Assembly: GCA_022843745.1 (NCBI GenBank)
Contig: JALHNB010000014.1
Location: forward strand, 1-64,000
Direction of reading: 5' to 3'
DNA length: 64,000 bases
Source: Anaerolineae bacterium
Lineage (GTDB): Bacteria > Chloroflexota > Anaerolineae > Aggregatilineales > Phototrophicaceae
In this document: positions 27,540 to 43,923 of the stretch, in pieces
Layout of the letters: every line of letters starts with the position of its first letter
How positions within the stretch are numbered: the first letter of the stretch is position 1
Translations under genes and position numbers: made by a program
Notes under the pieces: generated by a model
Databases searched by the model: none
What the model was told of the DNA's origin: nothing
Seen by the model: the letters and a program-made list of their open reading frames with translations, nothing else

Positions 27540-28151
27540 ATGAACATCAACCCGAACCTCCTCATTTCTGATCCTCAACCGAGCCGAGCCGATGCGCTCA
27601 AAAACCGGGCGCTGCTTCTGGAAACCGCACAGCGATTGTTTGCCGAGCAAGGTGTCGAAAATGTTTCGATGACAGCGATTGCCGATGCTGCCGAAGTCGG
27701 TAAAGGTACGCTCTATCGGCATTTTAAAAGCAAGTCGGAATTGTGCCACGCGCTGCTCGATCATGAAACGCGCGATTTGCAGGAACGATCTTTACGCCGC
27801 CTGCAAAATTATGGCGATCCACATGATGATTTAAGCTGGTTTTTAGAGCAGGTCGCTCTGTTTGTGATTCGGAACTCGCGTCTGTTGTGCGTCGGGGCGA
27901 ACTCGCGCACGGATAACGAAGGCGAAACTCCGATGTTGATACTCGAACATCCTGCGCATTTCTGGTGGCGCATCACTATTCGTGGCCTCTTGCAGCGTAT
28001 CCAGCCATCCGGTGACCTCGACTATATGGCAGATGTTCTCTATGTGATGCTGGACGTTCATACCCTCTACTTCCAGCGCGAGAAACTCGGCTACGATACC
28101 AGCCGCATCATTGACGGCCTCATCTCGACCACGATCTCTCTCACCCGGTAA
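27540..28151 (+). CDS. TetR-family transcriptional regulator
   Basis: A 203-residue TetR protein. The helix-turn-helix VSMTAIADAAEVGKGTLYRH with FKSKSELCHALL follows LLETAQRLFAEQG. The ligand domain (about 80-203) has no known effector. Two copies of an inverted repeat lie at 28150 and 28226, the first overlapping this gene's own stop codon, and are its likely operators for the downstream yceI promoter. The start is uncertain: ATG at 27540, or GTG at 27522 six codons earlier. Confidence 0.9.
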   Translation: MNINPNLLISDPQPSRADALKNRALLLETAQRLFAEQGVENVSMTAIADAAEVGKGTLYRHFKSKSELCHALLDHETRDLQERSLRRLQNYGDPHDDLSWFLEQVALFVIRNSRLLCVGANSRTDNEGETPMLILEHPAHFWWRITIRGLLQRIQPSGDLDYMADVLYVMLDVHTLYFQREKLGYDTSRIIDGLISTTISLTR

Positions 28152-40551: not shown

Positions 40552-40619
40552 TATTCTGCTAAACATTGGCGCGTCGTGTCACCAGTATTTTGCTAAACAT
40601 TAGCGCGTCGCGTCACGGG
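40552..40619 (-). repeat. 34-bp tandem duplication of the BatA-like gene's 3' end
   Basis: Copies at 40586-40619 (in the gene) and 40552-40585 (past the stop). Both read VTRRANV-stop on the reverse strand. Within those codons the only differences are synonymous (ACG/ACA and GCT/GCC). Confidence 0.85.
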
Positions 40620-42503
40620 ACGCATGATCGTCGGTGTGCGCAAACGCTGATGATAAACGTACCACTCGATCAGTAAAATGAGCAGCCCTAACAACGCCGC
40701 CAGCGGCCAGAACTCTAGCTGACCCACGTCCTCGCGCTCGCCGGGGGTAATCGTCGCGCTGCCCAGGGTGATGGTGTCGTGTGGTGTGATGTCGCTTTCC
40801 TGGGGTTCGAACAAATTAACCACGAATGGCTGATTTTGTTCGACAACTTCATCTTTTATCACATCAAGTGCATAGATGCCTGTCAGACTCGTTTCGGCAT
40901 AGATAATCGACTGGCGATCAATCGCTATCGTGCGCTCCGAGCCATTCGGTAAACTGATTTGCAGGCTGTCTGCCGTCAGCGGCGGGTAGATCATCAATGA
41001 TTCGCCCACGTTCAAGCCGTTGGGTACGGAAATGATGTTTTGCGGCGAGTACCAATTCATCAGATTCGACATCAGCACCGGCCAGGTGATTTGTAATGGC
41101 AGGTCAGAATTGTGAAGGTCAAATGTCAAAATCGCAACCTGTCGTCCATCAATCTCACCCGCCAGCAGCAGCGGGCCTTCATCCGCATTAATGAGAGGAT
41201 TCGCCCAATCTGCGCCGCTGATTTCGCGGAACGACAGCACATGCACATCCTGAAAATCGACAAACGCCATGCGCGGATCATTGGTCTGAACGAGCGGATT
41301 GGTCATTGTCTCGTTTTCCGCGCCTACAGTAAATAAATCGGTACTGCGCGGCGGGTTGATAATCAAAAGATCGCCTTCAGGCAGCGTGGCAGGCAGCCAT
41401 CCATCCAGAATATAGAGGTCATAGGTTTCCTGCGAGGGCAAACCCCGCGCCAGATCGCCTTTAAAACCCTGGATTGACGGCAAGCTGTTCAAGACCTGCT
41501 CGATGAATAGATTACCCGGTGTCATCAGCAATACGCGGCGGTTGGCTGCTCCGCTGGAAATTGCCCACGCCGTGTTATCTTCCGCGAGATAATCCGAAAC
41601 TTGTGTACTGCTTGAGGGAATCACACTCGCTTCAATGACCGCAAAATTATCTTGCAGGTCTTCATAGACCAGCGAGACATTATTATGCGCTGGAATTGTA
41701 TAAAAATCCGATGCGGTCAGTGTCGAATCGATGCTCATGCTGAATACGACTTCGGCCTCTTCATCACCGTAATTCGTGATTTGCGCGAATAGCTGGGGAC
41801 TCTGGTTGGGCAGTACGCTGGTCGCCAACGCCGTAATCGCGATATTGCTGCTGGACTGACCGACAGGCAAATAGGTCACTTTTCCAGGCACATTGGGCAG
41901 CAGTGCGGGATCGCCCAATCCGCCGTCGCTGATGATGACCACGTTGAAGTCTGTCGCGCCTACCGAGCTACCAATCGCCAATGTCAGTGCGCCACTCCAA
42001 TCCGCGCGAGCCTGACTCGGCTGTGCGCTGCTGATGGCTGTGCGCAGCGCGAGGGGATCATTGGTCGATGTAGCGATAACTTCTGGCACATCTGTTACGC
42101 GGATGACGGTCATCGTATTGGAAGCGGACATCGTATCCACCTCACCGAGCGCCTGACGTTTGGCATCTTCAAAGCGTGATGTGCCGTTAATATCTGTGGC
42201 GTTCATGCTGGCAGAAGCATCCAGCAGCAGCACGATTTGACCCGTCCCAGCGGCGGGAACGGTGATAAATGGACGTGCCAGTGCAAAGATCAAGGCCAAT
42301 AAAATAAGCAATTGTAAAAGCAGGAGCAGATTTCGCTTGAGACGCTGCCAGGGTGTGTTGGCCTCATTGTCCTTGAGAAGCTGCTGCCACAGAAATGTGC
42401 TGGATACCAGCACCTCACGACGGCGCAAGCGCAGCATATACATGAGGATGATGGGGATGGCGAGTGCAGCGCCGATGAAGGCCAGGGGCGTTAAGAATGA
42501 CAT
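40593..42503 (-). CDS. BatA-like VWA membrane protein
   Basis: A 636-residue protein. The N-terminal pair of helices with LRLRRREVLVSSTFLWQQLLKD matches the BatA/aerotolerance N-domain. The VWA domain has MIDAS DASAS at 95-99 and VVIISDGG. The central region (about 225-560) is Ig-like and GATase-like; a single helix (about 603-622) is near the end. VWA MIDAS proteins are the usual partners of MoxR ATPases. The operon spacing to DUF58 is broken by a GxxExxY cassette. Confidence 0.88.
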   Translation of the reverse strand: MSFLTPLAFIGAALAIPIILMYMLRLRRREVLVSSTFLWQQLLKDNEANTPWQRLKRNLLLLLQLLILLALIFALARPFITVPAAGTGQIVLLLDASASMNATDINGTSRFEDAKRQALGEVDTMSASNTMTVIRVTDVPEVIATSTNDPLALRTAISSAQPSQARADWSGALTLAIGSSVGATDFNVVIISDGGLGDPALLPNVPGKVTYLPVGQSSSNIAITALATSVLPNQSPQLFAQITNYGDEEAEVVFSMSIDSTLTASDFYTIPAHNNVSLVYEDLQDNFAVIEASVIPSSSTQVSDYLAEDNTAWAISSGAANRRVLLMTPGNLFIEQVLNSLPSIQGFKGDLARGLPSQETYDLYILDGWLPATLPEGDLLIINPPRSTDLFTVGAENETMTNPLVQTNDPRMAFVDFQDVHVLSFREISGADWANPLINADEGPLLLAGEIDGRQVAILTFDLHNSDLPLQITWPVLMSNLMNWYSPQNIISVPNGLNVGESLMIYPPLTADSLQISLPNGSERTIAIDRQSIIYAETSLTGIYALDVIKDEVVEQNQPFVVNLFEPQESDITPHDTITLGSATITPGEREDVGQLEFWPLAALLGLLILLIEWYVYHQRLRTPTIMRPVTRRANV

Positions 42504-42518
42504 GAGTCAGAGTCCATT

Positions 42519-43000
42519 AAAAACTTAACGCAAAGGCGCAGGGAAGCAAAGGCGCAGGGAGCGTTTAATATCATAATCCATTGACCACTCGACGTATACC
42601 ATTCTTAACGAGCTTTTCACCGAAATTAATCACTAATCCGAGTTTCATTTGCGTCAGCCGAAGATAAGTCAAGGTTTGAGCCTCAAATATTGGATTGTAT
42701 TCAATTGTTGCTTTGCACTCAACGATAACCAAATTATTCACCGTTACATCAATTCTCAAAGGCGTAGCGAGAACGATGCCTTTGTAGTCTATCGATAGAA
42801 TTTTTTGTCTCTCGACTGTGAAACCCTGCTGTCTGAGTTCATAAACCAATGCTTCTTCGTACACACTTTCCAATAGTCCCGGCCCACCCAATGTTCGGTG
42901 AACTTCAATCGCAGCTACCACAATTTGACCACTGATCTCATTTTCTTTCATAAAAATTTCTCTGCGTCTTTGCTCCTCTGCATCTCTGCGTTGAGTTTTT
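42519..43000 (-). mobile_element. GxxExxY cassette with terminal inverted repeats
   Basis: Left end 42519-42563 (AAAAACTTAACGCAAAGGCG...) and right end 42956-43000, whose reverse complement begins AAAAACTCAACGCAGAGATG. The ends match over about 45 bp with mostly A/G and C/T differences. The only gene inside is the GxxExxY ORF. The unit sits between the BatA-like and DUF58 genes of the large operon. No target-site duplication can be assigned. Confidence 0.65.
42571..42951 (-). CDS. GxxExxY protein (PDDEXK-like)
   Basis: A 126-residue protein of the GxxExxY family. The naming motif is GLLESVYEEAL. Downstream IDVTVNNLVIVECKATIEYNP contains the D-x(n)-ExK layout of PD-(D/E)XK nucleases, and AQTLTYLRLTQMKLGLVINFG is the conserved C-terminus. 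These genes are related to ORFs in 23S rRNA intervening sequences. The gene lies between inverted repeats, which supports a mobile history. Confidence 0.9.
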   Translation of the reverse strand: MKENEISGQIVVAAIEVHRTLGGPGLLESVYEEALVYELRQQGFTVERQKILSIDYKGIVLATPLRIDVTVNNLVIVECKATIEYNPIFEAQTLTYLRLTQMKLGLVINFGEKLVKNGIRRVVNGL

Positions 43001-43023
43001 AATTTTGCGTTTTTCTTCTTGCC

Positions 43024-43923
43024 TTACTTCAACAATCCCAGCCGCCGCATATCCTGCAAAATCAGCTTTTCCCAGGTGACGCTGGTATCCACCATCAGGT
43101 AATGTGCGCCACGTTTGCGACAGTCTGCGCGGATTTCTTCACGCCAGGCTTCCAAACGCCGCATGTACATTTCGCGCATGGAGGCATCAATAGTGACTTC
43201 CTGTGGTTGTCCGGTTTCGGCATCAATGAGTCGCAAATCTCCTGCCATTGGGGGTTCCAATTCTTCCGGCGCGAGAACATGGATCATGACCACCTCGTAG
43301 CCACGTCCCATCAGTGCGTTGATTCCGTCCAGATAGCCGGACGGCGAAAACATATCGCTGATGATAAAGCACAACCCAGGTCGCCGCGCCCGCAGCGCAT
43401 AATTAATGAGAACCGGATTGAGGTCGGTGACACCCTGGGCTTTTAATCCGCTCATAAATTTGAGCATGGGGATGCCTTGCACCTGCCCACGCGCCGGGCC
43501 AAAGCTATCTGCGCCGGAGTCGCTGACCGCCGTCACCATCATACGGTCATTGCTTGTGAGCGAGGTGTAGGCCAAACCCGCCGCCAGCCGCCGCGCAAAA
43601 GTGAATTTGTTATGCTCCGCGCTCTCGTCCTTCGGCCAATCCATGCTGGCGGACGTGTCGAGGATGATATGGACGGCTAAATCTTCTTCGTCTTCGAGCA
43701 GTTTGATGTACGGACGCTGCAAACGGGCAAAGACATTCCAATCCAGCCGCCGCAGGTCATCGCCGCGCGTATAATTGCGATAATCGGCAAACTCGATGCT
43801 CGTGCCGCGCTTCGTAGAACGGCGTTCGCCTTTCATCGCCCCGGCGCGTACCCGTGACGACCACAGCATCACCTGTTCGAGTTTGCGTCGCGTTTTCTCG
43901 TCAAATACTTTGTCGTCGGCCAT
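43024..43923 (-). CDS. DUF58 protein
   Basis: A 299-residue DUF58 protein: GTSIEFADYRNYTRGDDLRRLDW and NVFARLQRPYIKLLEDEEDL form the family signature, followed by a VWA-like part with LDTSASMDW. No membrane helix is present. DUF58 proteins are partners of MoxR ATPases in a chaperone-type system; the MoxR gene is upstream, separated by two GNAT genes. Confidence 0.92.
   Translation of the reverse strand: MADDKVFDEKTRRKLEQVMLWSSRVRAGAMKGERRSTKRGTSIEFADYRNYTRGDDLRRLDWNVFARLQRPYIKLLEDEEDLAVHIILDTSASMDWPKDESAEHNKFTFARRLAAGLAYTSLTSNDRMMVTAVSDSGADSFGPARGQVQGIPMLKFMSGLKAQGVTDLNPVLINYALRARRPGLCFIISDMFSPSGYLDGINALMGRGYEVVMIHVLAPEELEPPMAGDLRLIDAETGQPQEVTIDASMREMYMRRLEAWREEIRADCRKRGAHYLMVDTSVTWEKLILQDMRRLGLLK

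Follow-up and report, generated by a model that had tools for sequence, protein, structure and literature searches.

REPIN-RAYT systems and the intervening sequences of 23S rRNA genes are the described arrangements to which the small GxxExxY gene cassette reported here, found in an Anaerolineae genome, comes closest. RAYT transposases are thought to let REPINs spread. In REPIN-RAYT systems (PMC3116915), a genome has few enzyme genes, each accompanied by a short inverted-doublet repeat of a type peculiar to it; doublets lacking the gene, as well as single repeats, are scattered between genes, and repeat and enzyme change jointly. The cassette resembles that system in each of these respects. Its enzyme, however, has a predicted PD-(D/E)XK fold, whereas RAYT is a tyrosine transposase; its arms are arrays of 8-9-nt tandem units, and its gene sits within a single arm pair. 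Because the enzymes are unrelated, the cassette is not a REPIN-RAYT member, and the dispersed inverted doublets matching a linked enzyme that are described below constitute a functional likeness.

The 23S rRNA intervening sequences with an S23p/IVP ORF, which PMC4990558 presents as thought to be selfish, likewise have a small single ORF between inverted ends that would pair in RNA. The cassette differs from them in that its protein belongs to another family than IVP (PF05635) and in its position between protein genes rather than in rRNA; IVP genes outside rRNA carry arms of 7-nt units, against 8-9-nt units in GxxExxY cassettes. With MITEs and insertion sequences, the cassette shares inverted ends with and without a gene as well as scattered copies, but its ORF belongs to no known transposase family and no target duplication was seen by eye. 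Enzyme and ends fit no described mobile-element class found in the open PMC literature.

GxxExxY proteins are found in many bacterial phyla. Within the open PMC literature (subscription journals and preprints being outside its scope), no paper was found that assigns a role to them, or that links them or the repeat strings described here to mobile arms.

The cassette and its protein

The window, a stretch of 64,000 nucleotides of contig JALHNB010000014.1, contains the cassette between two genes that we take, from their sequence, to be of DUF58 type and VWA/BatA-like (Table 1). The arms pair over 54 nt, with 42 of 54 positions (78%) complementary and 380 nt between them, and form the single long inverted repeat of the region 42300-43300, where two other pairs reach only 14 and 20 nt. 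Local inverted alignment of the ORF's 200-bp flanks gave a score of 30, compared with a maximum of 18 in 2,000 dinucleotide shuffles and of 16 at 1,234 positions of the same geometry elsewhere in the window, ruling out a chance inverted repeat. The inverted ends around one GxxExxY ORF that the preliminary description had proposed are thus real, its limits (42519-43000, with ends of about 45 bp) being a few bases too narrow. The window's own genome has one GxxExxY match in all.

Table 1. Positions of the cassette, its parts and its flanking genes in the window, and of related loci elsewhere
Feature	Position	Strand	Remarks
VWA/BatA-like gene (presumed)	40593..42503	-	flanking gene
Insertion site	42504..43023	.	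520-bp space between two minus-strand genes
Cassette	42516..43003		488 bp of the gap
Left inverted arm	42516..42569	.	downstream of the GxxExxY ORF in the gene's own sense; tandem 8-nt units CGCAAAG-G-CGCAGGG-A-AGCAAAG-G-CGCAGGG within outer ATTAAAAACTTAA
Direct repeat in left arm	42530..42560	+	GCAAAGGCGCAGGGA twice, 16-nt spacing
GxxExxY ORF	42571..42951	-	126 aa; predicted PD-(D/E)XK nuclease fold; D68, E78, K80
Right inverted arm	42950..43003	.	ATTAAAAACTCAACGCAGAGATGCAGAGGAGCAAAGACGCAGAG...; upstream with respect to the gene's own direction
DUF58-type gene (presumed)	43024..43923	-	flanking gene
IVP / four-helix-bundle loci	L166-L195		own-genome copy L173 (G000:C76:25444-25758)
Second Geomonas spot	downstream flanks of L048, L054, L058, L061, L062		five species
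Sphingomonas parapaucimobilis locus L363	NZ_CP155749.1 480894-485247		fabD-fabG operon

In the profile search, the window ORF scored 134.9 bits against TIGR04256 (GxxExxY; cut-off 35), identifying it as a family member, and 124.4 bits against PF13366 (PDDEXK_3; cut-off 22); no other match was obtained at E 0.001, neither to the RAYT tyrosine transposase nor to a transposase of any known family. The element thus has the terminal inverted repeats of an insertion sequence or DNA transposon and, by this search, lacks the accompanying transposase.

The residues E28, Y31, D68, K80 and Q92 are invariant in 42 sequences, at least 90% of which also have E78. The predicted structure (pLDDT 95.3, pTM 0.89) matched Cas4-like SSO0001 (4ic1) with a Foldseek E of 4.9e-4 and a VIA Z of 9.2 (rmsd 3.7, 100 residues), and archaeal Hjc (1gef) with a Z of 7.2 (rmsd 3.3 over 87 residues), a level rated common by the tool; Cas4 and Hjc structures gave Z values of about 7 against the model. 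Identity in these alignments was about 15%, the likeness residing in the predicted fold and the D-E-K catalytic pattern, and no sequence relative was found among PDB chains up to E 1. From the modelled fold together with the D-E-x-K residues, we are confident in placing the protein in the PD-(D/E)XK nuclease superfamily, with catalysis being predicted. To our knowledge, no protein of this fold drives repeat-arm elements of such a kind.

Values of dN/dS between 0.015 and 0.23 were obtained for 11 of 14 pairs (three gave no value, and dS exceeded 1 in three of the 11), indicating that GxxExxY is kept as a working protein under purifying selection. Broken copies also occur, with a stop codon in loci L096 and L034.

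Arms and arm units around other GxxExxY genes

Loci were sampled from a genome contig collection (45 loci) and from the window's genome and 60 relatives (30 loci), 26 of these 61 genomes holding GxxExxY over the cut-off; extra copies came from 15 genomes picked for holding the gene. In the printed flanks, most GxxExxY genes are surrounded by inverted arrays of short purine-rich units. By strict local alignment of 200-bp flanks, 66 of 93 copies exceeded the 99th percentile of the controls, which was 15 (medians 22 and 10); the controls were 930 positions in the same loci, nine duplicate loci had been dropped, and 93 of 98 copies had enough flank. An initial test with a laxer gap cost had placed 42 of 71 copies above its own control 99th percentile. 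After enlargement by 20 further loci (two duplicates dropped, 113 of 116 copies with enough flank), 82 of 113 copies scored above 15, the controls being those of the 93-copy set and not rerun, and 31 failed. The inverted ends that the preliminary description had suggested looking for in 200-bp flanks are therefore present at most of the GxxExxY copies tested.

The idea that any small gene shows such arms was rejected, since none of 22 PIN-domain genes from the window's 61 genomes passed the arm test, compared with 23 of 31 GxxExxY copies there (22 of 30 fetched PIN loci had full flanks and were used, with gene ends approximated). The association was lower in a separate Bacteroidales draw, for which 60 genomes were taken from the order to which G072 (source of locus L070 and recorded as Prevotella) belongs. 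The gene was over the cut-off in 28 of these genomes, and 27 of 29 fetched loci supplied the copies tested. Here, 8 of 28 copies or fragments exceeded the set's own control 99th percentile of 21 and 20 failed, with a median arm score of 15.5 against 10 in controls. To the eye, several further copies in this draw have unit-like arms. With 82 of 113 copies passing in the main set and 8 of 28 in the Bacteroidales draw, the association of GxxExxY with arms is widespread and not universal.

Of 93 loci, 44 have GxxExxY co-directional with both neighbours and 8 have it running against both (p=4e-7); the corresponding counts in the Bacteroidales draw were 16 and 0 of 20. Spread by plasmids or phages was not indicated, with the gene in 8 of 72,556 plasmid records and in no record of the phage collection.

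In 162 arms, self-similarity was highest at a lag of 8 (z=26), followed by 9 (z=13); lesser peaks lay at 2 and 10. A unit-run count, made without a control, found at least three units in 58 of the 98 flanks upstream of the gene and in 48 of the 98 downstream of it. The units vary between copies. In the window's subclade, they read [CT]AACGCAAAG-N-CGCAGAG-N-CGCAAAG, in a second subclade AACCGCCAAG-N-CGCCAAG-NN-CGCCAAG or AACCACAGAG-N-CACAGAG-NN-CACAGAG, and in rumen Bacteroidales TCACACAGAAATCACAGAAATCACAGAA; AACCGCGAATAACGCGAATAGCGCGAAT, CAGGGATAAAAGGGATACAGGGGAT and more occur elsewhere.

Arm similarity drops as protein distance grows: for the 85 copies that have arms, rho is -0.469 over 3,490 pairs from different genomes with a tree distance over 0.3. 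This value was reached in none of 500 global shuffles and in none of 500 within-genome shuffles (17 genomes, 50 copies), for which the null mean was -0.198 and the lowest value -0.41; therefore, copies sharing one genome tend to bear the arms of their own subclade. As far as sequence comparison goes, this within-genome match is the strongest sign that the GxxExxY protein may read the arms.

Gene-less arm pairs and insertion sites

Matches to three unit patterns were counted in the 61 genomes, the reversed pattern serving as control; the tests on genome counts use hand-copied counts. One unit type gave 162+128 matches in genome G041 (control 0+0), another 64+78 in G022 (control 0+1). Twenty fetched stretches proved to be inverted arm pairs, mostly of two or three units, with loops of about 10 to about 150 bp. 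The median number of unit matches was 23 in genomes with GxxExxY and 1 in those without, and at least ten matches were present in 20 of 26 and 4 of 35 genomes, respectively. The relation between gene-less copies and presence of the gene held after matches beside genes had been removed (p=1.7e-7), and in gene-bearing genomes the matching unit type was enriched over other types (p=0.018, 0.001 and 0.008), all these genome-count comparisons being uncorrected for kinship.

Exceptions are genomes G002 and G033, with many repeat copies and no GxxExxY detected. In the window's own genome, CACRGAG double units number 100 (control 0+1; loci L296-L325), some paired and some solo; the sole GxxExxY of this genome has CGCAAAG-type arms, and none of the CACRGAG arm type was found there. 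At L153 (G047:C1:784101-785606), one transporter-like gene is flanked on each side by a complete gene-less palindrome. A palindrome of a different type, with GTAGGGGCG ends, was seen in the window's own genome (L309, L313) and as a lineage-specific insertion in Geomonas (G065:C12, about 27791-27963).

For the DUF58-VWA site, 30 genomes were fetched, and in 17 of them both flanking genes could be recognised. The gap between them is 19, 19, 46, 51, 73, 125, 126 and 169 bp in eight relatives without the cassette, and 389-639 bp in seven genomes with GxxExxY, the window included. The cassette is reversed at this site, with its own arms, in G009 and G027; in G004 (L258 = L100), GxxExxY is kept in a 389-bp gap and the arms are gone. 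By eye, the G004 translation is missing the GxxExxY-helix Glu, a residue invariant in the 42 sequences. The gaps of 660 bp in G008 (L248) and 626 bp in G022 (L251) have no GxxExxY match and, by eye, another small ORF; L248 starts with a single CGCAAAG-like stretch.

One intergenic site in five Geomonas species is occupied by members of two GxxExxY subclades, each subclade having arms of its own. The subclade found there is not the same in G065 and G069, whose flanks are 91.6% (upstream) and 88.8% (downstream) identical. A second Geomonas spot, near a gene end, is empty in G069, holds a gene-less 8-nt-unit palindrome in G065 and G068, and is occupied in G066 and G070 by an IVP-like gene whose arms consist of 7-nt units. 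Among the 18 insertion-like gaps listed for a 172.6 kb Geomonas alignment (91.6% identity), three are unit-type palindromes, one of them unique to G065 and the other two to G069.

A cassette with ends TTCACGCG and CGCGTGAA separates fabD from fabG in Sphingomonas parapaucimobilis, where the two genes are 464 bp apart; in S. paeninsulae, where there is no cassette, the fabD stop and the fabG start are about 30 bp apart. The GxxExxY reading frame annotated in S. parapaucimobilis extends across the downstream arm. In Bacteroides finegoldii, the cassette comes after radA. Insertions are located between genes, often directly behind a stop codon. Inspection by eye revealed no target-site duplication at the junctions in the window, in Sphingomonas or in Geomonas, the empty sites being too divergent for a firm test. 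Given the ends found at most copies and the existence of occupied, empty and swapped sites, the earlier idea of a transposon-like cassette has largely held up.

Interpretation of the cassette and its IVP parallel

With a probability of roughly 0.6, we read 42516-43003 as a mobile, probably selfish, single-gene cassette whose PD-(D/E)XK nuclease would recognise its own arms, in the manner of REPIN-RAYT. That gene and arms occur together, that arm type goes with subclade, that gene-less pairs exist and that sites differ by presence, absence, reversal or swap of the cassette is established by the sequence comparisons; movement is what we infer from them. In the proposed mechanism, the best-supported step, to which the covariation points, is that the protein would bind, at the DNA level, the 8-9-nt units that make up its own arms, the arms perhaps being presented as an extruded cruciform or a single-stranded hairpin. 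Cutting at the arms or ends, suggested by fold and geometry, would come second in support, and spread of its own cassette and of gene-less copies, suggested by copy number and site differences, third. The co-directional bias (44 vs 8) suggests a dependence on host transcription that a plain transposon would not need.

Against the mobile-cassette reading stand this bias, the copies that fail the arm test (31 of 113, and 20 of 28 in the Bacteroidales draw), the scarcity of the gene on plasmids and its absence from the phage collection, and the fact that neither a target-site duplication nor an excision product nor movement was observed. So do the repeat-rich genomes G002 and G033, in which no gene was detected, and the 100 CACRGAG double units of the window's own genome, for which no GxxExxY of matching type was found. 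Genomes such as G002 and G033 would be expected if an unlinked enzyme spread the repeats and GxxExxY were a passenger, or a nuclease useful to the host in defence or repair, caught between two copies, and the strong purifying selection on the gene and its co-directional neighbours would also suit such a passenger. Yet a passenger should neither match its subclade's arm type within genomes nor occur with an enrichment of the matching gene-less type, and we regard this explanation as unlikely. Quite unlikely, in our view, is a homing-type element, with a nuclease that would cut sites lacking the cassette or bearing a foreign type and be copied into them by recombination through flanking homology, so that cassettes mostly interchange at fixed sites. 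The two subclades at one site in sister Geomonas species are in keeping with this, as is the use of the DUF58-VWA site in several genera and in both orientations, but gene-less copies in many unrelated places require moves to new sites.

The preliminary description had also considered that the paired ends fold in RNA and are spliced or processed. A transcript would indeed fold to a long hairpin (z -2.53), and both the co-directional bias and the IVP-like architecture could be accommodated by arms that work as RNA, with the hairpin undergoing cleavage or splicing in the manner of 23S rRNA intervening sequences. Differences between arms, however, showed no preference for G-U-compatible over disrupting changes (200 vs 176, p=0.24; 82 loci), insertions in reverse orientation also exist, and the protein fold is DNA-nuclease-like. 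With no Rfam family found in 42300-43300 up to E 10 either, the RNA-level reading gained no support and is very improbable.

The link to 23S rRNA intervening sequences drawn in the preliminary description is wrong by family and close in architecture. Those sequences carry PF05635, whereas the window matches only PF13366 and TIGR04256, and the window element sits between two protein genes, outside any 23S rRNA gene. PF05635 (23S_rRNA_IVP) genes of the same genomes nevertheless have inverted arms of their own, 15 of 27 exceeding the control 99th percentile. Over 30 such arms, the periodicity is strictly 7 nt, identity being 0.70 at lag 7 and reaching 0.73 at lag 14; the arms have GTTATCA, GATGAGT and GGGAGTG among their unit types and presumably resemble the STRR heptamers of cyanobacteria. 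In Geomonas, an IVP gene and a GxxExxY-type palindrome use a common insertion spot.

Returning to the mobile-cassette reading, the 7-nt-unit arms of IVP genes and the shared Geomonas spot lend support to a wider but tentative proposal, which we hold at somewhat less than even odds: GxxExxY (PD-(D/E)XK) and 23S rRNA-IVP (four-helix bundle) genes may represent parallel branches of a single, hitherto undescribed class of bacterial mobile DNA, made up of a small gene inside inverted arrays of short tandem units, plus gene-less copies. Unit length would be set by family (8-9 nt and 7 nt) and GxxExxY unit sequence by subclade, common insertion spots could be used, and rRNA intervening sequences would be members that landed in rRNA. 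The parallel has a bearing on the long-standing problem of the nature of 23S rRNA intervening sequences.

The gene-plus-arms package and the gene-less arms across many bacteria point to an undescribed kind of mobile DNA, and a mobile-element class built on a nuclease fold is suggested. For the GxxExxY family, the tie to arm-specific repeats provides a testable job, and many unexplained intergenic palindromes gain a likely owner. Protein subclade and 8-9-nt unit covary naturally, which would amount to a ready-made specificity code.
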